Assembly: GCA_903935205.1 (NCBI GenBank)
Contig: CAIZQU010000082.1
Location: forward strand, 1 to 37,361
From: an uncultured cyanobacterium
GTDB taxonomy: Bacteria > Cyanobacteriota > Cyanobacteriia > PCC-6307 > Cyanobiaceae
Reading direction: 5' to 3'
Length of the DNA: 37,361 nucleotides
Below the pieces are notes generated by a model. It was given only the letters and a program-made list of their open reading frames with translations. It was not told the DNA's origin and searched no databases. The translations under genes and the position numbers were made by a program. Below are positions 8,297-18,106 of the stretch, one piece after another (the stretch's first letter is position 1; every line of letters starts with the position of its first letter).

Positions 8297-9865
8297 TCAG
8301 CGTTCCGCCCCTGACAGCGGCGTGATGTCGTTGAGTTGCCAGTTCTTGCTGAAATAGGGCTCGGTCGGACCATAAAAACGGAAATAGGCGAACCAGCCTT
8401 TGCCCGGGATGGTCTGAATCCAGTTCGAGGCGCCCGCCGGTCTGATCGGCCCGAAGATCAGATCCACCGAGCCATCGGCGTTGGTCAGCAGATCGGGCCG
8501 GCGCGAGCTCAGATCGGCGGCGCCCTGGCCGGTGAGCAGCGGGCCGCGCGTGAGGTTGTCGTAAAGGGTGATCGACCAGAACTGTTTCACCGGTGGATTG
8601 GCGGGCACGCGCATGCGGTAGGTCTTGCCTCCGTCAAGCCACTGGCCGCGTCCGTCCTTCGAGGCCTCCAGATACACCTGGCCGAACCCCAGCACCCGTC
8701 CCTGCATCCCCACCGACATGCCGATCGCCTCGTAGAACCAGGAGCTGCGCTCGTCGAACTGCACGCGGCGCTTGTCGGGTGCTTCCTGGTCGAGGTCGAA
8801 GAGCACCGCGTACTCCCATTGCTTGCCGGGGTAGACCGTGGCCCCGGGGGTGCGCTTGTCGTAGGCGATGGTGCGGGCCATCAGATCGCCCAGTTGGGCT
8901 GCTTCCCGCAGGATTCCGGCCTGGCGGCCATCGGGGTTGAAGGGTTGGCCGGGGCTGATGCCGAGCGGTGCCAGCAGGCCGAACATCATCCGATCACGCG
9001 GTGCCACCGGCTCATTGGCGTAGAGCTCGCTCAGCAGGCGCCAGTAGGCAAGATCAGCGGGCTGGGCCGACTGCCAGGGGCGCCCCCCCACCTCCACATA
9101 GCGGGAGACCGGCGGTTGGGCCCTCTGGCTCCAGCCGTAGAGGCGGTGCTGGCGCACGGTGGCCTCGGCCACGGCCTTGTCCGCCGCCAGCCCCCGGGTG
9201 CCGAACCAGATCTGGTTGCTGGGGGAGCGGAAGATGCGATATCCCGGCACCACCAGCTCGGGCCCGCCTGGGGGAAGGATCAGGTACCGGCCGCCGGCCC
9301 CCTTGTCGGGTCCGGTCTGGCCCATGTCGGTGATCGGCTGCTGCCAGATGTCGAGCACTCCGCCGGCGGTGAGGCCGGCCGGCACCTCCACCACCAGCGG
9401 CCCCTGGGCGGCCAGATCCCAGAAGCTGAAGGCGTAGAGGGTGGTGATGTTGGGCGTCAGCATCCCCGCCTTGTCCTGGAGGGTGCGGTAGAGCAGCACG
9501 TCGCCGTTGCGCACGCCCATGGTCTTGGCCTGGGCGTCATAAAGCGCCTTGAAGCCAACCGCTGGCAGAGCCCAGAGGTAGGCCTGGGTGGCGCGCTGCA
9601 GGTCGAGTTCGTCGTAGAGCTTCCGGGCTGTGGCGGCGGTGGGGTAGCCGTTCTCGAACTCCAGGCGGCCCAGGCGGGTGGGCAGGCTGCTGGGGGCGGA
9701 GATGCCGGCCTTGCCCGCTTGCATGCTGCCTGCAGCCCTGCCGGGGGGCGCGGGGGGTGCGGGGGCCGCCACCGCCGCAGCGCCGAGGCCGCCGAAGGGC
9801 GCCAGGGCGATCCCCAGGCCAACCGCCAGGGTGAGGGCGGAGCCAATGGACCGCTGGCGGGGCAT
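8297..9865 (-). CDS. Secreted DUF1254/DUF1214 domain protein
   Basis: About 522 aa from ATG 9865, giving a clean export signal (MPRQRSIGSALTLAVGLGIALAP... ending near AVAAPAPP). The mature protein has an N-terminal DUF1254 region (the YLWALPAVGF, NGDVLLYRTLQDKAGMLTPN and PLVVEVPAG segments). A C-terminal DUF1214 region follows (FWSITLYDN, then GPIRPAGASNWIQTIPGKGWFAYFRFYGP split by short turns). These paired domains are common in proteobacterial periplasmic proteins of unknown biochemical role. The frame is open about 40 codons upstream, but that part is Arg-rich and lacks a signal. Convergent with mscS (111 bp gap), divergent from the deacetylase gene (234 bp gap). Function not assigned. Confidence 0.87.
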   Translation of the reverse strand: MPRQRSIGSALTLAVGLGIALAPFGGLGAAAVAAPAPPAPPGRAAGSMQAGKAGISAPSSLPTRLGRLEFENGYPTAATARKLYDELDLQRATQAYLWALPAVGFKALYDAQAKTMGVRNGDVLLYRTLQDKAGMLTPNITTLYAFSFWDLAAQGPLVVEVPAGLTAGGVLDIWQQPITDMGQTGPDKGAGGRYLILPPGGPELVVPGYRIFRSPSNQIWFGTRGLAADKAVAEATVRQHRLYGWSQRAQPPVSRYVEVGGRPWQSAQPADLAYWRLLSELYANEPVAPRDRMMFGLLAPLGISPGQPFNPDGRQAGILREAAQLGDLMARTIAYDKRTPGATVYPGKQWEYAVLFDLDQEAPDKRRVQFDERSSWFYEAIGMSVGMQGRVLGFGQVYLEASKDGRGQWLDGGKTYRMRVPANPPVKQFWSITLYDNLTRGPLLTGQGAADLSSRRPDLLTNADGSVDLIFGPIRPAGASNWIQTIPGKGWFAYFRFYGPTEPYFSKNWQLNDITPLSGAER

Positions 9866-10099
9866 GGCGATCACCAATCCGGGGCCCAACCCTAAACAGC
9901 GCCTTCGGCAACGGCCACGGTCGCCACCAACCCTGGCCAGGGCCAGGGGAAGCCGCCTCCACCGGCGCCCGCGCCCGCCTGCCACGCCCTCGCCTGCCGC
10001 TGCAGCCGCTGGCGAACCCTGCCGCAGGGGGCCCCTGGTTCAGGCTGCAGGAGGTCCGTGGCGCCGCGTCAGGCGGGCGGGCTTCCCTAGCCTCGAATC

Positions 10100-11133: not shown

Positions 11134-12693
11134 TCAGCGCCCCAGCTCCCGGCGGATCGCCGCGGCCATCCGCAGCGCCAGGGCCACCACCGTCAGCCCC
11201 GGTCCCACCGACGGACAACCGGGCAGGGTGGAGGCGTCGGCGATCCAGAGGTTGGCCACCTCGTGGCTGCGACCCTCCAGATTGACCACCGAAGCGGCTG
11301 GATCGCTGCCCAGCCGGCAGGTGCCGCAGGCGAAGCCCATCACGTTCAGGGGCGCCTCGCCCCGGGGATAGATCGGCGCCCGCTGCACCACGGTGGTGGC
11401 CGGATCGCGCTCCACCTGCTGCATCACCGCCAGCCAGCGATACACCAGCCGGTCGTGGGCCTCACGGCTGTTGGCCAGGTAGTTGACCACCACCCGCTCG
11501 CCCCGCAGGGTCACCCGGTTGTCTGGATCGGGTCGCACGCTGCTGGCCACCCACCAGCTCACCGAGCGGTCGGCCAGCCACTCCAGGGCGGGATCGGGCA
11601 GCAGCCGGCTCACCAGCGACAGCACCGGCGGCGATTCGGCAAACAGCGGATCCTGCAGCACGCCGCCGCCGCCGCGCACCACCCCAAGGGCGTAGTCGAC
11701 GTTGCGGTCGCCGTCGTGGAAATCCGTCAGGCCCAGGCCGGGCCCGTAGCGACCCGAATGCACCACGGCCGACCGCTGCAGCATGGCGGTGAGCTGGGGG
11801 CGCATCAGGTTGCGGCCCACCTGGTCGGAGCCGTTGGCCATGCCGCGGGGGTGGCGTTCGCTGGCCGAACGCAGCAGGATCACGGCGCTGCCGATCGCCC
11901 CCGCGGCCAGCACCACCTGGTGGGCGCGGAACAACCAGCGCTGGCCGCCGATGCGGGCCTCCACCGCCCGCACCTCCCGGCCGCTGGCGGAGCCATGCAG
12001 GGCCAGCACCTCGGCACCGCAACGCAGCGTGAAGCCGGGGCAGCGGCGGGCCCGGTCGAGCCCGAAGCCCTCGGCGTCGCCGCTGGGATCTTCGGGCGAT
12101 GGGCCCACGCTCAACGGCAGGTGGTAGGGGCGCAGCCCCTGCCGGCGCAGGTCGGCGCCCAGAAGCTCCTGGAAGGGTTCCAGGGGCTTTGGCGCCTGGG
12201 CATAGGGGGCGGAGCGGGGAGGCTCGGTGGCGTCGACACCGGCCTGCCCGTGCACGCGATAGAGCGTTTCGGCGCGGTCATACCAGGGTTCGAGGTCGGC
12301 GTAGCGCAGCTCCCAGTCGGGACCGGGGCCCTCCTGCATCGGCAGGTGGCAGAACTCCCGCTCCCGCATGCGCTCCAGCACCGCGCCCCAGATCTTGGTG
12401 TTCCCCCCTGGGGCCATCACCATCTGCGGTGCGAAGGGGTCGCCATCGGTGCCGATCCACTCCTCGCCCGGGTGGTAGCGGCGGCGGCGGAACAGGTCGA
12501 TGTCGGCCACGTTCTGATCGGCCAGGGGCAGGGGAGTGCCGCGCTCCAGCAGCAGCACCGAAAGGCCCGCGTCCGCCAGCTCGCCGGCCAGGGTGCCGCC
12601 GCCGGCGCCGCTGCCGACGACGAGCACATCAAAAAGCTCCTCTTCGATCAGCAGCCCCCCAGCCGGGGCCGGCGGCAACGGCGGTGCGTTCAT
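11134..12693 (-). CDS. GMC family FAD-dependent oxidoreductase
   Basis: Flavoprotein dehydrogenase/oxidase of the glucose-methanol-choline superfamily, 519 aa. The N-terminal FAD-binding Rossmann motif is VGSGAGGGTLAGELA (about 26-40), and the GGNTKIWGAVL segment lies near 97-107. The C-terminal half has the conserved GTCRLGSDPAASVV and LWIADASTLPG blocks. Two positions depart from the pattern I expect. The residue usually His before GT is Phe (FACGTCR), and the usual Asn-Pro near the C-terminus reads Gly-Pro (PSVGPGLTVVALALR). No Tat or Sec signal is seen, so it is probably cytoplasmic or peripheral. Its ATG overlaps the stop of the oxidase subunit III gene (ATGA), so it is translationally coupled to the terminal-oxidase operon. 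I infer that it may deliver substrate electrons to that chain. Its substrate is unknown. Confidence 0.9.
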   Translation of the reverse strand: MNAPPLPPAPAGGLLIEEELFDVLVVGSGAGGGTLAGELADAGLSVLLLERGTPLPLADQNVADIDLFRRRRYHPGEEWIGTDGDPFAPQMVMAPGGNTKIWGAVLERMREREFCHLPMQEGPGPDWELRYADLEPWYDRAETLYRVHGQAGVDATEPPRSAPYAQAPKPLEPFQELLGADLRRQGLRPYHLPLSVGPSPEDPSGDAEGFGLDRARRCPGFTLRCGAEVLALHGSASGREVRAVEARIGGQRWLFRAHQVVLAAGAIGSAVILLRSASERHPRGMANGSDQVGRNLMRPQLTAMLQRSAVVHSGRYGPGLGLTDFHDGDRNVDYALGVVRGGGGVLQDPLFAESPPVLSLVSRLLPDPALEWLADRSVSWWVASSVRPDPDNRVTLRGERVVVNYLANSREAHDRLVYRWLAVMQQVERDPATTVVQRAPIYPRGEAPLNVMGFACGTCRLGSDPAASVVNLEGRSHEVANLWIADASTLPGCPSVGPGLTVVALALRMAAAIRRELGR

Positions 12694-13385
12694 CGGTCCT
12701 GCCAGAGGTAAAGGAGGGCAAACAGCACGATCCAGATCACATCGACGAAATGCCAGAACAGGCCCACCGCCGTCACCCCCGCTTCGCCGCCGTCGTAATT
12801 ACCGGGCTGGAAGGATCGCCAGAGCATCAGGGCCATCAGCAGCACGCCGCTGATCACGTGCAGGCCGTGGAAGCCGGTGAGCAGGTAGAAGCAGGCGCCG
12901 AACACCCCGTCAGCCAGGCCGAAGGGGAGCCCCATCCATTCGCGGGCCTGTCCGAGCACGAACCAGCTGCCCATCGCCATGGTGAGCAGCCACCAGAGCC
13001 GGAAGCGCCCCAGCTGGCGGCGGTGCAGGGCCCGTTCGGCCAGCCAGGCCACGCCGCTGGAGCTCACCAGCACCAGCGTGTTGATCAGCGGTTCCCGCAC
13101 CTCCAGACCTTCCACCCCAGGCGGCAGCCAGAGGGGAGAGGAGCGCTTGAACACGATGTAGGCCGCGAACAGGGCGGCGAAGATCAGGCTCTCGGAGGCC
13201 AGAAAGATCACGAAGCCCGTGAGGTTGTGGCCGCCGTGGCCGCCGTGGCCGCCATGGCCGCCGAGGGAGTTGCCGCCAGGTTCATCCGGCCGGCTTTCGG
13301 GGCCCTCTGGATGGCGACCAGCGGCGAGCTCCGGGAGGCCGCCGGAGCCGGGGCCGGTGCTGCCGCCGAGCAGGGATTCCGCCAT
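12690..13385 (-). CDS. ctaE: Haem-copper oxidase subunit III (ARTO-type)
   Basis: Subunit III of the terminal oxidase, 231 aa, an integral membrane protein stabilising subunit I. A soluble Gly/Pro-rich N-terminus of about 54 residues precedes five helices: FVIFLASESLIFAALFAAY, INTLVLVSSSGVAWLA, LLTMAMGSWFVLG, then ACFYLLTGFHGLHVISGVLL and FVDVIWIVLFALLYLW. The FHGLHVISG block is a subunit III signature. Unusually, the N-terminus ends in four tandem Gly-Gly-His units (residues 42-53) just before the first helix. Its start has AGGAGG 9 nt upstream, and the gene begins 4 bp after the ctaD stop. Its stop overlaps the GMC start by 4 bp. Confidence 0.93.
   Translation of the reverse strand: MAESLLGGSTGPGSGGLPELAAGRHPEGPESRPDEPGGNSLGGHGGHGGHGGHNLTGFVIFLASESLIFAALFAAYIVFKRSSPLWLPPGVEGLEVREPLINTLVLVSSSGVAWLAERALHRRQLGRFRLWWLLTMAMGSWFVLGQAREWMGLPFGLADGVFGACFYLLTGFHGLHVISGVLLMALMLWRSFQPGNYDGGEAGVTAVGLFWHFVDVIWIVLFALLYLWQDR
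13227..13262 (-). repeat. Four tandem 9-bp units encoding (Gly-Gly-His)4 in ctaE
   Basis: Four copies of GTGGCCGCC (one with ATG in place of GTG) encode Gly-Gly-His four times at residues 42-53 of subunit III. The slightly degenerate His codon (one CAT among CAC) argues that it is not a very recent slippage product. Histidine-rich tracts can bind Cu or Zn; a metal role here is only a possibility. Confidence 0.85.
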
Positions 13386-13389
13386 CGCT

Positions 13390-15084
13390 TCAGGCCTCCT
13401 GCAACCGCGCTTCGTAGCGCTCCTGGTCGGCCACCAGAGGATGGCCGAGGCCGTAGCCGTAGGGAGCGCTGATCACGGTGGGCACATCGTGTTCAAAGTT
13501 CTCGGCCGGCGGTGGCGAGGGCAGCAGCCACTCCAGACCGATGGCCTGCCAGGGATTGGCCGGGGCCCGAGCCCCCCGCACCCAGGAACTCACCAGATTG
13601 AGCAGGAAGGGAATCGTGGCCACCCCGAGCAGGAAGGCGCCGAGGCTGGCGAGCACATTGGCCAGGGCGAATTCGGGGTCGTAGGCGGCGACCCGGCGGG
13701 GCATGCCCATCAGGCCGGCCCAGTGCATCGGCAGGAAGTTGAGCTGGGCGGCGAGGAAGGTGAGCAGGAAGTGAACCTTACCAAGACCTTCGTAGAGCAT
13801 GCGACCGGTGAATTTTGCGAACCAGTGATAAATTGCGGCATACACACCGAAGGTGATTGTGGAGAAAATCACCGTATGGAAATGACCAACAACGAAATAG
13901 GTATTGCCCACGTGCACATCCACCGGCACCGTGGCCAGCATCACGCCGGTGATGCCGGCAAAGATGAAGTTGAAAACCCCGCCCATCGCAAATAGCATGG
14001 CTGTGGTCAGCCAGAGTTTGCCGCGCCAGAGGGTGGCCAGCCAGGCAAAAACCTTGATGCCGGTGGGCACGGCAATCAGCATCGTGGTGACCATGAACAG
14101 ATGGCGCATCCATTGCGGTGTGCCGCTGGTGAACATGTGGTGCACCCAGACGATCAGGCTGAGCAGCACGATGCCGAATGAGGCGATGGCGACCACGTGG
14201 TAGCCGAACAGGGGCTTGCGGGCATAGACCGGAAAGATCTCGGAGAAGAAGCCGAACACCGGCAGCACCATCACGTAGACGGCGGGGTGGGAGTAAAACC
14301 AGAAAAAATGTTGATAGAGCATCGGGTCTCCACCGCCCTCCGGGCGGAAAAAGCTGGTGCCGAAGCTCAGATCAAACAGCAGCATCACCGCCCCGGCCGT
14401 CAGCACCGGCAGCCCCGCCAGCTGGATCGTCTGGGCCGCCAGGGCCGTCCAACAGAAGATCGGCAGGCGAAACCAGCCCATGCCAGGGGCGCGCATGCGC
14501 ATGATCGTGGTGCAGAAATTCACCGCCCCCAGAATGGAACTCACCCCCGATATGGCCACTGCCAGAATCCAAAGAAACTGACCATTGACCAGCAGGCCCA
14601 ACGGGTTCTGGGTGCTCAGCGGGGGATAGGCCCACCAGCCCGAGCTGGCGGGGCCGCCCGGCACCAGGAAGCTGGCCATCAGGATCACGCCAAACAAGGG
14701 AAACATCCAGAAGGCCAGGGCATTGAGGCGCGGGAAGGCCATGTCTGGCGCGCCGATCATCGGTGGAATCAGGAGATTATTGAACCCATTCAGAATTGGA
14801 AAGAGAAAGAGAAACAGCATCACCGTGCCATGCATGGTGTAGAGGCCGTTGTAAACCGTCGGATCGATCAGATCGGCCGGTGGTGTCAGCAGTTCGCCCC
14901 GCATGATCATCGCCAGCAGACCTCCGACCAGCAGAAACAGCAGGGCCAGGGCGATGTATTGAATCCCGATCACCTTGGCGTCGGTGTTGAAGGTGAAGAA
15001 GCGTCGCCAGTTGTCCGGTGCCCCAGGCACTGGATGGGGGGCCCGCAGGACGCGGGGATCGAAGCGGATCGGGGCGGTGCTCAT
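13390..15084 (-). CDS. ctaD: Haem-copper oxidase subunit I, A2 type (ARTO)
   Basis: Catalytic subunit of the terminal oxidase (O2 to water with proton pumping), 564 aa and about 12 helices. Haem and Cu ligands are present: His85 (TMHG), His266, His315/His316 (VHHMF), and His401/His403 (VGHFH). The D-channel entry Asp114 in GAPDMAFPR and Asn121 are kept, as is the K-channel Lys344 (TGIKVF). At the site where A1 oxidases have HPEVY, this protein reads YSHPAVY (264-270). The proton-gating Glu is Ala and the Tyr-Ser pair of A2-type oxidases replaces it; the crosslinking Tyr270 is kept. It lies 12 bp after ctaC and 4 bp before ctaE. Patches near 13770-14060, 14270-14330 and 14500-14600 are markedly less GC-rich than the rest of the operon. 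Confidence 0.97.
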   Translation of the reverse strand: MSTAPIRFDPRVLRAPHPVPGAPDNWRRFFTFNTDAKVIGIQYIALALLFLLVGGLLAMIMRGELLTPPADLIDPTVYNGLYTMHGTVMLFLFLFPILNGFNNLLIPPMIGAPDMAFPRLNALAFWMFPLFGVILMASFLVPGGPASSGWWAYPPLSTQNPLGLLVNGQFLWILAVAISGVSSILGAVNFCTTIMRMRAPGMGWFRLPIFCWTALAAQTIQLAGLPVLTAGAVMLLFDLSFGTSFFRPEGGGDPMLYQHFFWFYSHPAVYVMVLPVFGFFSEIFPVYARKPLFGYHVVAIASFGIVLLSLIVWVHHMFTSGTPQWMRHLFMVTTMLIAVPTGIKVFAWLATLWRGKLWLTTAMLFAMGGVFNFIFAGITGVMLATVPVDVHVGNTYFVVGHFHTVIFSTITFGVYAAIYHWFAKFTGRMLYEGLGKVHFLLTFLAAQLNFLPMHWAGLMGMPRRVAAYDPEFALANVLASLGAFLLGVATIPFLLNLVSSWVRGARAPANPWQAIGLEWLLPSPPPAENFEHDVPTVISAPYGYGLGHPLVADQERYEARLQEA

Positions 15085-15096
15085 CGGTGGTGCGGC

Positions 15097-16317
15097 TCAG
15101 CCTGCGTGGGGGGCGGTGGCGTCGAGGGGGGCGTTGACCAGGGGAGGGGCGGCCGGGGCCACCGTGGCCCAACCCCGGTTGCCCTGGCGCAGGCGCTGCT
15201 CCCAGAGATCGCTGGCGAGGTTGGGGTTGGGCACCAGGGGGCTGGCCAGGGCTGTCTCGAGCCAGTGGCTGAACGCCTCCTCGCTCTCCACCACCACATC
15301 GGTCTGGTTGGCGGCGAAGTAGGCGCCGCTGAACAGGGAATCCCGCAGCCGGTAGCGCCCCTCGCGACTGGGGGTGAGGCGGTAATCGATCACGCTGCCG
15401 GGCACCACGTCCTGGCGCAGTCGGAAGGCGGGAATCGAGAGGCCGTGCAGCACATCGAGCGAAAGCAGGCGCAGCCGCACCGGGCGGTTGAGGGGCAGGT
15501 GCAGTTCGCCGCTGCGAACGCCGTTGGGATAGATGAATTCCCAGGACCACTGGCGGGCGATCACCACCACCGGACCCAGCTCGGCGGGGGGTGGCCCAGC
15601 CGGGGGGGAGGCCACCGTGGCGCCGGCTGCCGCCCTGGGGGAGGAGCGCTGAGCCGCAGCCAGCGCGGCAGTGGAGCGTTCGGATGCCTGGGCGATCGCG
15701 GCAGCGGAGCCTGCCTGTGCGGGCCTCAAGGCGCTGGAATGGTCAGGCGCCGCCGCGCCGGCAGCGGCATCAACACCCGGAGCGCCTCCCGCGGCCGCTA
15801 TCTCCTCCACCCCCTCCAGCCCCACCAGCCGCAGGGCTTCGGCGGCCCCCGCCACCCGCACCTTGCCGCCCAGGCTGGCGAGCTGGCCGTTGACCCGGAT
15901 CGCCTGCCAGGCGATCAGCAGGACCAGCACCAGGGGGATCAGGGTCCAGGTGATCTCGAGGGTCAGATTGCCCTCGATCGGTTCACCATCGTCGCGGTCG
16001 TACCTGCCGGTGCGGTCGAACAGCAGGGTCCAGACCATCACCGCCGTGCAGCCCAGGAGCAGAAAGCAGCCGATCCCCACCTCAAGCCCGAATAGGTCGT
16101 CAACCAGGGGGGCGGCGGTGGAAGCCTGGGGCGGCAGCCAATGGGGCACCTGATCCATCAGCCAACGGCTGGCCAGCAGGTCGAGGCCGACCCCCAGCGT
16201 CACCAGCACCACCGCCCCCCGATCGAGGCCGGGGTCGCGCCGATCGGGGGGCGTACCGGAGCCCTGGGGCCCGCTGGTTGCTCCGGAACCGGTCGCCGTC
16301 GAAACGGAGTCGCTCAT
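15097..16317 (-). CDS. ctaC: Oxidase subunit II lacking the CuA site (ARTO-type)
   Basis: Subunit II of a haem-copper oxidase, 406 aa from ATG 16317, which overlaps the preceding DUF2231 stop by 4 bp. The order is an N-terminal helix (AVVLVTLGVGLDLL), a second segment (LEVGIGCFLLLGCTAVMVWTL) and a third after EGNLTLEITWT (LIPLVLVLLIAW). Next comes an Ala-rich insertion of about 100 residues (roughly 146-247), then the cupredoxin domain with the aromatic RQWSWEF motif (255-261). The fold motif HGLSIPAFRLRQDVVPG keeps only the first ligand-type His291. The CxExCGxxHxxM CuA motif is replaced by DSLFSGAYFAAN (326-337): both Cys, the Glu, the His and the Met are absent. Loss of CuA is described for the cyanobacterial alternative respiratory terminal oxidase and for quinol oxidases, so electrons probably do not enter from cytochrome c through CuA. 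Confidence 0.93.
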   Translation of the reverse strand: MSDSVSTATGSGATSGPQGSGTPPDRRDPGLDRGAVVLVTLGVGLDLLASRWLMDQVPHWLPPQASTAAPLVDDLFGLEVGIGCFLLLGCTAVMVWTLLFDRTGRYDRDDGEPIEGNLTLEITWTLIPLVLVLLIAWQAIRVNGQLASLGGKVRVAGAAEALRLVGLEGVEEIAAAGGAPGVDAAAGAAAPDHSSALRPAQAGSAAAIAQASERSTAALAAAQRSSPRAAAGATVASPPAGPPPAELGPVVVIARQWSWEFIYPNGVRSGELHLPLNRPVRLRLLSLDVLHGLSIPAFRLRQDVVPGSVIDYRLTPSREGRYRLRDSLFSGAYFAANQTDVVVESEEAFSHWLETALASPLVPNPNLASDLWEQRLRQGNRGWATVAPAAPPLVNAPLDATAPHAG

Positions 16318-16940
16318 GGCAACAGCTGGCGAGGATCGGCGCCTTCGGCCAGAAGCTGGTCGGCGGTGACATGCACGCCGAATTCGGCCGCCAGCTCCGC
16401 GCCCAGGGTGCCATGCAGCCCGAGCAGGCCAAACAGGAGCAGACCCACCAGCAGATAGGACCACTGCACCTGACGGCCGTAATCACGCCGCCAGGCGAAG
16501 CGCTGAAACCCGCGCCACACCGTCATCGCCACGATCGCCAGCAGCAGCAGAACGCCGCCCACCCCATGCCAGAGCAGGGTGGTGGTGGCGTCGAGGCCGA
16601 GGGCGCTGCGCACCCCCGGCACCGGGTCCGCCAGCAGCATCTCGTAGAAACCTGCGGCCACCGTCAGGAAGCTGATGCCAGCACAGGCCAGCAGGTTGTA
16701 CCAGCCGACATCGTGGAAGCCGCTGCGGGTGACGGGCAGGGCCAGGAAGCGGAAGATCCGCTTTTCCACCGGGTAGAGGGCCCCGACCAGATCGAAGGCG
16801 ATGGCGATCACGAACAGGCCGATGCTCAGGTGCACCAGGTTGGGGTGAATCGGCAGGGCATAGGGCAGGTCGTTGGCCCCCAGTCCCGCTGGACGCAGCG
16901 GCGCCAGCACAGGCCAACCCGTTGCCGTCAAGGGGCTCAC
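16314..16940 (-). CDS. DUF2231 membrane protein (second copy, adjacent to ctaC)
   Basis: Four-helix membrane protein of 208 aa. I place the start at GTG 16940 because it overlaps the upstream DUF2231 stop as GTGA; the frame is open further but would run into that gene. Helix 1 carries IHPNLVHLSIGLF (His32, His37), helix 3 has LLWHGVGGVLLLL (His125), and helix 4 ends in GLLGLHGTLG (His176). The neighbouring paralogue has His at the equivalent four sites. Paired intramembrane His residues suggest bound haem b or a quinol site, by analogy with cytochrome b561-like four-helix proteins; the family itself has no known function. It is translationally coupled on both sides (4-bp overlaps), so it is probably made together with the oxidase. 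Confidence 0.85.
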   Translation of the reverse strand: MSPLTATGWPVLAPLRPAGLGANDLPYALPIHPNLVHLSIGLFVIAIAFDLVGALYPVEKRIFRFLALPVTRSGFHDVGWYNLLACAGISFLTVAAGFYEMLLADPVPGVRSALGLDATTTLLWHGVGGVLLLLAIVAMTVWRGFQRFAWRRDYGRQVQWSYLLVGLLLFGLLGLHGTLGAELAAEFGVHVTADQLLAEGADPRQLLP

Positions 16941-17566
16941 AACCTGCCCTCTCGCATCGCCGCCACCACCTGCACCGTGTGGAGGCCGTAGGTCCAGATC
17001 AGCTGGTTGCCGAGCAGGGTCTGGACCACGATCAGCACGCTCAGGCCGGCGCCCGCCACCAGGAAGGGGGCGGGAAGGCTCTGGGGGTCGCGGCTGCGGA
17101 TCACGTAGCGCCATCCCGAGAGCAGGGAGAACACCCCCGCCAGGGCCCAGCCGAGGCTGCTGTGCAGATTGAGCAGATCGCGGGAGGCCCCATAGGGATT
17201 GGCAAGACCCGCTTCCACCTGGCCGAAGAGGATGGCCACGAAGATCGCCACCGTGGCGAACAGCAGGTTCCAGAAACTCACCTCAAACAGGGCCGGCCGC
17301 CGTCCGAAGCGGCCGATCAGATCAAACACAAAAGCCACCAGTCCCATCGCAATCACGAAGTGCACGACGATCGGGTGGATGGTGTCCATCCAGGGCAGGT
17401 TGTGCTCGTTGAGGGGAGGCAGCAACGGCACGGTGGGGGTGGCGATTCGCCGGCGGGTGATTTCAGGCTGGCGGTTCGGCCTGCGAAAGCCGCGGCTTGT
17501 GATGGATTGCGACAGCTGCGTCGACGATTCCACACCGGCCGCGGAACCCTTCGCCAGCGTGGCCAT
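16937..17566 (-). CDS. DUF2231 membrane protein (first gene of the oxidase operon)
   Basis: 209 aa with a polar N-terminal extension of about 60 residues, then four helices. TIHPIVVHFVIAMG (His64, His69) is in helix 1, FWNLLFATVAIFVAILFG is helix 2, LLNLHSSLGW (His135) is in helix 3, and TYGLHTVQ (His196) is at the end of helix 4. It is a paralogue of the next gene with the same His layout. The ATG at 17566 has GAAGGGATC just upstream, a reasonable ribosome-binding site. It is the probable first gene of the operon. Only 24 bp separate its start from the divergent HdeD-like gene, so the promoter must overlap that gene's 5' end or the short gap. Function unknown; a role in electron input or assembly of the CuA-less oxidase is inferred from position. 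Confidence 0.85.
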   Translation of the reverse strand: MATLAKGSAAGVESSTQLSQSITSRGFRRPNRQPEITRRRIATPTVPLLPPLNEHNLPWMDTIHPIVVHFVIAMGLVAFVFDLIGRFGRRPALFEVSFWNLLFATVAIFVAILFGQVEAGLANPYGASRDLLNLHSSLGWALAGVFSLLSGWRYVIRSRDPQSLPAPFLVAGAGLSVLIVVQTLLGNQLIWTYGLHTVQVVAAMREGRL

Positions 17567-17590: not shown

Positions 17591-18106
17591 GTGTCCGCCC
17601 CGGCTTCTCCGACCCTGCGGCGCGTCGCCGCCCTGTTGTTGCTGGCGGCGGCGGTCCTGGCGATCGCCCTGCCCTTCCTGTCCTCCACCCTGCTCACCAT
17701 CGCCCTCGGGGGTGTTGCGATCGCCGCCGGGGTGTCCCAGCTGCTGCGGCTGAGCGGTGCCGAGGGGACCCAGGCCAGGCTGTTTCGGGGGCTGTCCGGG
17801 GTCCTTTACCTGCTCGGGGGTATCGGCCTGCTGGCCTTCCCGGTGCAGAGCACCCTCAGCCTGACCCTTTTCCTGGGCTTCCTCCTGGCGATCGAGGGGG
17901 TGATGGAGCTGGCGGCCGCCGCCGCCGGCCAGGGGCCGGCCCGGGGGCTGGTTCTGCTCGATGGCATCGTCACCGCCGTGCTCGGCGGACTGCTGATCGT
18001 CGAATGGCCCCTGAGCGGTACCTGGGCGATCGGCACCATGGTTGGCATCGGTCTGGTCTTCTCGGCGGTGAACCTGCTCACCAGCCCGTCGCGGCGAGAG
18101 GCCTGA
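17591..18106 (+). CDS. HdeD/DUF308 family membrane protein
   Basis: 171 aa from GTG 17591 (VSAPASPTLRRV...). Six hydrophobic helices form three hairpins: VAALLLLAAAVLAIALPFL, LLTIALGGVAIAAGVSQLL, GLSGVLYLLGGIGLLAF, LTLFLGFLLAIEGVMELAAA, LLDGIVTAVLGGLLIV and AIGTMVGIGLVFSAVNLL. This is the DUF308/HdeD layout. E. coli HdeD is associated with acid resistance, but the role here is unknown. The gene is divergent from the oxidase operon with a 24-bp gap, so the two may share regulation. Two GCGATCGC octamers lie inside it (17660, 17717). Confidence 0.85.
   Translation: MSAPASPTLRRVAALLLLAAAVLAIALPFLSSTLLTIALGGVAIAAGVSQLLRLSGAEGTQARLFRGLSGVLYLLGGIGLLAFPVQSTLSLTLFLGFLLAIEGVMELAAAAAGQGPARGLVLLDGIVTAVLGGLLIVEWPLSGTWAIGTMVGIGLVFSAVNLLTSPSRREA

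Follow-up and report, generated by a model that had tools for sequence, protein, structure and literature searches.

The closest described counterpart of the locus analysed here is the cox3 operon of Anabaena, which encodes the oxidase known as ARTO or Qox. The published accounts give this operon five genes, alr2729-alr2730-coxB3-coxA3-coxC3 (PMC6616624); in one expression table alr2729 and alr2730 appear as putative membrane proteins and change along with the cox3 genes (PMC7065334), and the first gene is an NtcA-bound region (PMC3898017). ARTO is described as needed in heterocysts, as sharing the Synechocystis plasma membrane with NDH-2 (PMC6878006) and, from Synechocystis mutants in the oxidase genes, as affecting ferric reduction, which is impaired in those mutants (PMC7676907, PMC10119275). 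The window, by which we mean the whole 37,361-nt stretch analysed (contig CAIZQU010000082.1, from an uncultured cyanobacterium of the Cyanobiaceae), has the same layout: two small membrane-protein genes, here termed D1 and D2, are followed by the genes for subunits II, I and III (ctaC, ctaD and ctaE), and the CuA site is absent. D1 and D2, both of the DUF2231 family, are very probably dedicated integral-membrane partners of this CuA-less oxidase. The preliminary description of the window had regarded the family as lacking an assigned function; neither a function nor a family was found for the two first ARTO operon genes in the literature searched, most subscription journals lying outside its coverage, whereas the operon itself has already been published as ARTO. 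The present analysis adds a corrected set of conserved residues, a counted linkage with the loss of CuA and a second oxidase partner.

Some other systems share individual features with the locus. The bo3 and aa3-600 quinol oxidases resemble ARTO in having a subunit II without CuA and the same active-site ligands in subunit I. In the archaeal SoxABCD quinol oxidase, subunit II lacks CuA and is accompanied by an additional membrane cytochrome, a precedent for the mechanism considered below; SoxC is a relative of cytochrome b, which DUF2231 is not known to be. Caa3_CtaG, CtaM (DUF420) and UPF0093 (the HemJ family of haem-pathway membrane oxidases) are multi-helix membrane proteins like D1 and D2, in their case linked to oxidases or haem, and Caa3_CtaG and a UPF0093 protein adjoin the single DUF2231 of Proteobacteria.

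As the preliminary description had it, two DUF2231 paralogues open the oxidase operon. Both open reading frames match PF09990 (E-values of 8.1e-34 and 6.3e-38 for D1 and D2; 117.1 and 130.4 bits against a gathering cut-off of 26.4), NCBIfam has no name for either, and at an E-value of 0.001 they are the only DUF2231 proteins of the source genome. Six consecutive genes lie on the minus strand in the order D1-D2-ctaC-ctaD-ctaE-GMC oxidoreductase (Table 1). The 4-bp overlaps reported earlier were confirmed from the sequence, GTGA being common to D1 and D2 and ATGA to D2 and ctaC. The source genome falls in the Cyanobium/Synechococcus clade, as judged from the named relatives in the sequence search, and holds a second oxidase, of the CuA type, at another place. 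Among the 80 best relatives, retained out of 155, D1, D2 and CtaC were seen together in 77, D1 and D2 in one and D1 alone in two; the arrangement of two membrane-protein genes ahead of ctaC also occurs on named plasmids. By extension from Nostoc-type loci, rather than from the Anabaena record itself, alr2729 and alr2730 would likewise be DUF2231 proteins.

The linkage between the pair and the CuA-less oxidase was counted across the phylum, in which 79 of 244 genomes contain DUF2231. Among the matches listed, to which all linkage counts refer, DUF2231 lies within 3.5 kb of 63 of the 67 ARTO-type ctaC genes and of none of the 133 other coxB genes, so that adjacency tracks the loss of CuA within cyanobacteria, the check that the preliminary description had suggested. 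The Fisher value for this contrast (about 1e-47) is descriptive only because the operons share descent. Conversely, 55 of 61 DUF2231 pairs are no further than 3.5 kb from an ARTO-type ctaC. The join used coordinates for 168 of 178 DUF2231 hits; 17 of the 150 listed PF00116 rows were left out as coming from non-photosynthetic genomes, and none of these shares its contig with a DUF2231 hit. ARTO-type ctaC genes were assigned by match region and identity; 17 full-length matches of 33-38% were placed with the CuA type, CuA being present in all seven that were read, and eight second COX1 copies were classed as ARTO by us.

The exceptions on the two sides partly coincide. The six other pairs comprise two beside a cbb3-like oxidase (G036 and G111), three in genomes of genus g15 and one pair of the single type (G062), and the four ctaC genes without a nearby DUF2231 belong to the three g15 genomes and to G060 (contig C23). 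In genus g15 the pair, ctaC and a second COX1/ctaD gene lie apart from one another, yet all three are kept. G060 holds three ARTO-like sets: one is complete with the pair, one has the pair with only fragments of ctaC and ctaD matched (L141, G060:C15) and one is without the pair (L191, G060:C23). The CuA pattern gave no match in this last ctaC copy. The single DUF2231 proteins of cyanobacteria were considered as oxidase parts and rejected; no oxidase gene was present in the 16 stretches examined or in L172 and L174, and the neighbours of such single genes are of other kinds.

The core subunits of ARTO show neither of two known electron entry sites. The CuA motif is missing from the window CtaC, as described previously, and Asp and Ser stand in place of its two Cys in every one of the 100 ARTO-type CtaC sequences that cover the loop (the window and 99 others; two more of the 102 in all, L022 and L141, stop short of it). 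The full motif was present in 32 of 32 sampled other cyanobacterial coxB genes. For subunit I, E. coli CyoB served as the reference. The haem and CuB ligands equivalent to CyoB H284, H333, H334, H419 and H421 are kept in all 100 ARTO CtaD sequences, whereas R71, D75, H98 and Q101, the quinol-site residues of bo3, were each found in none of the 100, and no bo3-type quinol site was thus recognized; bo3 further differs in that its cyo operon is without DUF2231. Where CyoB has H411, ten of ten CuA-type CtaD sequences also have His, against Asn, Ser or Gly in all 100 ARTO sequences.

ARTO is one of two kinds of haem-copper oxidase that the pair accompanies, because four loci read CcoN-FixO-D1-D2 (G036, G261, G111 and G345, from three families). 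These are four of the ten cyanobacterial FixO loci, the search for FixO having covered 388 genomes of the class and found it in 10; the remaining six have no pair. NDH-2 directly follows the pair in three of the four, G036 and G111 among them. The cbb3-like CcoN-CcoO partner differs from the window oxidase, which is of the A type, has subunits II and III and lacks a haem c subunit. A role of D1-D2 as a substitute for the di-haem CcoP was rejected, as five of the six pairless FixO loci also show no second haem c gene (of the sixth, G493, 3.4 kb is visible). A tree of D1 and D2 separates the two halves without grouping the four cbb3-linked copies in a single clade; we make no claim on the number of recruitments. 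D1 and D2 are in one reading frame at three loci. The cbb3-linked D2 copies at L165 (9012-9944) and L166 (3748-4668) have a C-terminal extension of about 100 residues.

The D1 gene, whose reading frame had been given as reaching 17566, stands, but its start has been moved. D1 probably begins at the GTG at window position 17431 and is 164 residues long, because the closest relative (91% identical) aligns to the listed frame only from residue 46 onward, which is this GTG, and because in 80 of 80 relatives a start codon lies at most four codons from the LPxLN motif (ATG in 72, GTG or TTG in eight). The start is probable rather than proven, since some tblastn matches to the listed frame reach further upstream.

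The preliminary description had also placed four His at equivalent sites in the two proteins. The His that it named are present at those residues, but the fourth pair was mismatched: D1 H196 (H151 in the 164-residue numbering) aligns with D2 H190 and not with H176, which stands opposite a Gln that is invariant in D1 (Q137). Only after H176 is replaced by H190 do the four His prove to be conserved throughout. H19, H24, H90, H151, E73 and Q137 are invariant over 121 D1 sequences. Over 119 D2 sequences H32, H37, H125 and E100 are invariant, and H190 is His in 118, the remaining sequence being truncated before it. H176 is His in 112 of the D2 sequences, Gln in six and a gap in one, and all four cbb3-linked copies are among those with Gln.

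The predicted models agree with the earlier assignment of four helices to each protein. Four long helices are present in the D1 model (pLDDT of 81) and, at lower confidence, in the D2 model (pLDDT of 72). In the D1 model helices 1 and 3 begin, and helices 2 and 4 finish, on one side, and H19, H24, E73, H90 and H151 are all located there. The His/Glu cluster of D1-D2 should probably face the lumen or periplasm, because Lys and Arg are more numerous in the loops of the opposite side (six versus three in D1, nine versus three in D2). In a fold comparison, the natural matches of the D1 model are mostly oxidase subunit III (for example 7xmc_C, Z-score of 13.4 and r.m.s.d. of 2.9 for 140 aligned residues), and designed helical bundles tie with these matches (Z-score of 13.9 at rank 1). 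As far as the model goes, the fold matches of D1 are those of a common four-helix bundle. Searches by sequence for solved relatives gave none for D1 or D2 and two, at E-values of 0.33 and above, for the proteobacterial DUF2231 set. The profile comparisons found no kinship of D1 to oxidase subunit III (hhalign probability of 0.2%, shallow profiles) or to the proteobacterial neighbour annotated CopD (UPF0093; profile probability of 0.2%). D2 and the proteobacterial DUF2231 proteins compare at a profile probability of 18% (E-value of 0.0014), though both match PF09990.

D1 and D2 are probably subunits of ARTO. The preliminary description had seen in them candidates for a haem b or quinol-handling module that feeds or assembles the oxidase, a reading that finds partial support here. 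A role of the pair in electron input to the oxidase is plausible, if short of probable. In the models each protein is a bundle of four helices, and its four invariant His and its invariant Glu probably lie at the lumenal or periplasmic face; this His/Glu cluster would handle electron input, with quinol oxidized at that face, and electrons might pass through D1-D2 to the low-spin haem of CtaD. The most likely carrier would be a haem b held by pairs of D1 and D2 His, although we regard haem b binding itself as doubtful. Electron input through the pair would account at once for the loss of CuA, the absence of the quinol site and the nearby NDH-2 genes. A broader proposal, which we consider unlikely as it stands, is that D1-D2 is a portable quinol-oxidizing haem b module that frees haem-copper oxidases from CuA and a soluble cytochrome donor; it would act on A-type (ARTO) and C-type (CcoN-CcoO) oxidases in cyanobacteria, and a single DUF2231 may have eased repeated loss of CuA in Proteobacteria.

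Several observations weigh against electron input as the role of the pair. The linkage counts for ctaC and coxB share descent and come from the matches listed. The ctaC-ctaD-ctaE set of G060:C23 (L191) lacks the pair, and a Gloeothece plasmid carries the pair with no oxidase gene in 7 kb on either side. CcoO of the cbb3-like partner carries a haem c of its own. In the CuA-type CtaD sequences R71, D75 and H98 are each found in none of ten, and Q101 in seven of ten; because these proteins also lack the first three residues, their absence from ARTO shows only that one known site is missing and not where electrons enter. Foldseek returned no match at an E-value of 0.001 and none that stands out, the cytochrome bd, bo3 subunit III and cytochrome b561 entries in the D1 list (E-values of 0.4-0.7) not being counted as evidence. 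Finally, DUF2231 also accompanies CuA oxidases outside cyanobacteria.

The single DUF2231 proteins found there bear on the explanations that compete with electron input. An oxidase was present at three of seven plasmid loci from a search with a distant single DUF2231 (none at four) and at nine of eleven from a search with an oxidase-linked DUF2231 (none at two), the latter plasmid set being biased to oxidase-linked copies; many single DUF2231 genes have no oxidase nearby. Of the subunit II sequences at these 12 oxidase loci, five carry the full CuA motif, six lack both Cys and one (an unannotated record) has only the Met changed, so that no tracking of CuA loss is seen in this sample from outside cyanobacteria. 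In 11 of 11 annotated proteobacterial oxidase loci DUF2231 stands beside a gene annotated CopD, and in ten beside an oxidase assembly gene. All three of those assembly genes scanned against Pfam are Caa3_CtaG, above the cut-off, and the one CopD gene scanned matched UPF0093 (53.9 bits, cut-off of 34.2) rather than CopD. As separate observations, both CuA Cys have been lost from the subunit II proteins of L180, L248, L250, L251, L253 and L258, which adjoin a single DUF2231 and are often annotated as cytochrome B or hypothetical, and relatives of the CuA-less proteobacterial subunit II in the same kind of cluster keep the CuA Cys.

Because of this Caa3_CtaG and UPF0093 neighbourhood, we retain as a tentative alternative that D1 and D2 are assembly factors, forming a membrane metal or haem site that helps to load CuB or the CtaD haems, in a role like that of CtaM and Caa3_CtaG but with a different sequence. 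The proteobacterial single DUF2231 stands with subunit II, a large ctaD and Caa3_CtaG whether CuA is present or not, its CopD-annotated neighbour matches UPF0093 (the HemJ family) in the copy scanned, and a His/Glu cluster at one face would suit a metal site as well. Small membrane proteins with conserved residues that are needed for oxidases have precedents in CtaM and Caa3_CtaG (PMC9145763). The cyanobacterial pair, however, opens a structural operon with 4-bp overlaps and is beside none of the 133 CuA-type coxB genes listed, although those enzymes also need CuB and haems. It is, moreover, kept with a C-type oxidase, and the assembly needs of C-type oxidases differ from those of the A type.

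It is quite unlikely that the pair has a purely structural or regulatory part in the enzyme, as cofactor-free subunits covering a membrane face exposed by the lost CuA contacts. This would fit the preponderance of cofactor-free subunit III among the natural fold matches of D1, but those Z-scores are equalled by designed bundles, the profile comparison found no kinship, and four His and a Glu that are invariant in both paralogues ask for more than packing. Somewhat less likely still is a different redox function of the pair at the outer face, ferric reduction for example, with co-transcription as its only tie to the oxidase. The pair without an oxidase on the Gloeothece plasmid, the GMC, SDR or sorbosone dehydrogenase genes near several DUF2231 genes and the impaired ferric reduction reported for ARTO mutants would agree with such a task; on the other hand, those mutants hit the oxidase genes, genus g15 has retained all three parts although they are unlinked, and the pair accompanies a second oxidase type too. 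If D1-D2 is the missing entry site, this would explain how ARTO is fed and give an uncharacterized family its first function; should it prove to be an assembly factor, its His and Glu would constitute a new loading site. In both cases the invariant residues provide a short list of mutants for a model cyanobacterium.

Table 1. Genes of the oxidase operon and conserved residues of D1 and D2, in window coordinates.
Feature	Position	Strand	Remarks
D1, first DUF2231 gene	16937..17431	-	Probable GTG start, 164 aa; longest ORF extends to ATG 17566
D1 invariant His	H19 17375-17377, H24 17360-17362, H90 17162-17164, H151 16979-16981	-	
D1 invariant Glu	E73 17213-17215	-	
D2, second DUF2231 gene	16314..16940	-	GTG start, 208 aa
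D2 invariant His	H32 16845-16847, H37 16830-16832, H125 16566-16568, H190 16371-16373	-	H190 missing in one truncated relative
D2 invariant Glu	E100 16641-16643	-	
D2-specific H176	16413-16415	-	
ctaC, oxidase subunit II without CuA	15097..16317	-	406 aa; Asp and Ser at the two Cys positions
ctaD, haem-copper oxidase subunit I	13390..15084	-	564 aa; has the active-site ligands but not the bo3 quinol-site residues
ctaE, oxidase subunit III	12690..13385	-	231 aa
GMC-type oxidoreductase	11134..12693	-	519 aa; 4-bp overlap with the end of ctaE

Of 72 close loci, 71 have the GMC gene with D1 to ctaE, as do 10 of 20 distant loci. This operon-final oxidoreductase is a possible electron donor, and two DUF2231-oxidase clusters of Sulfitobacter likewise have GMC genes nearby. 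A promoter scan found no promoter-like site. Beside D1, a divergent gene (17591-18106, plus strand) matches DUF308 (HdeD-like repeat), the gap between the two being about 160 bp if D1 starts at 17431. Elsewhere in the window, the minus strand encodes a protein with DUF1254 and DUF1214 domains (8297-9985) and an HsdM-type DNA methyltransferase (N6_Mtase and HsdM_N; 194-2263).

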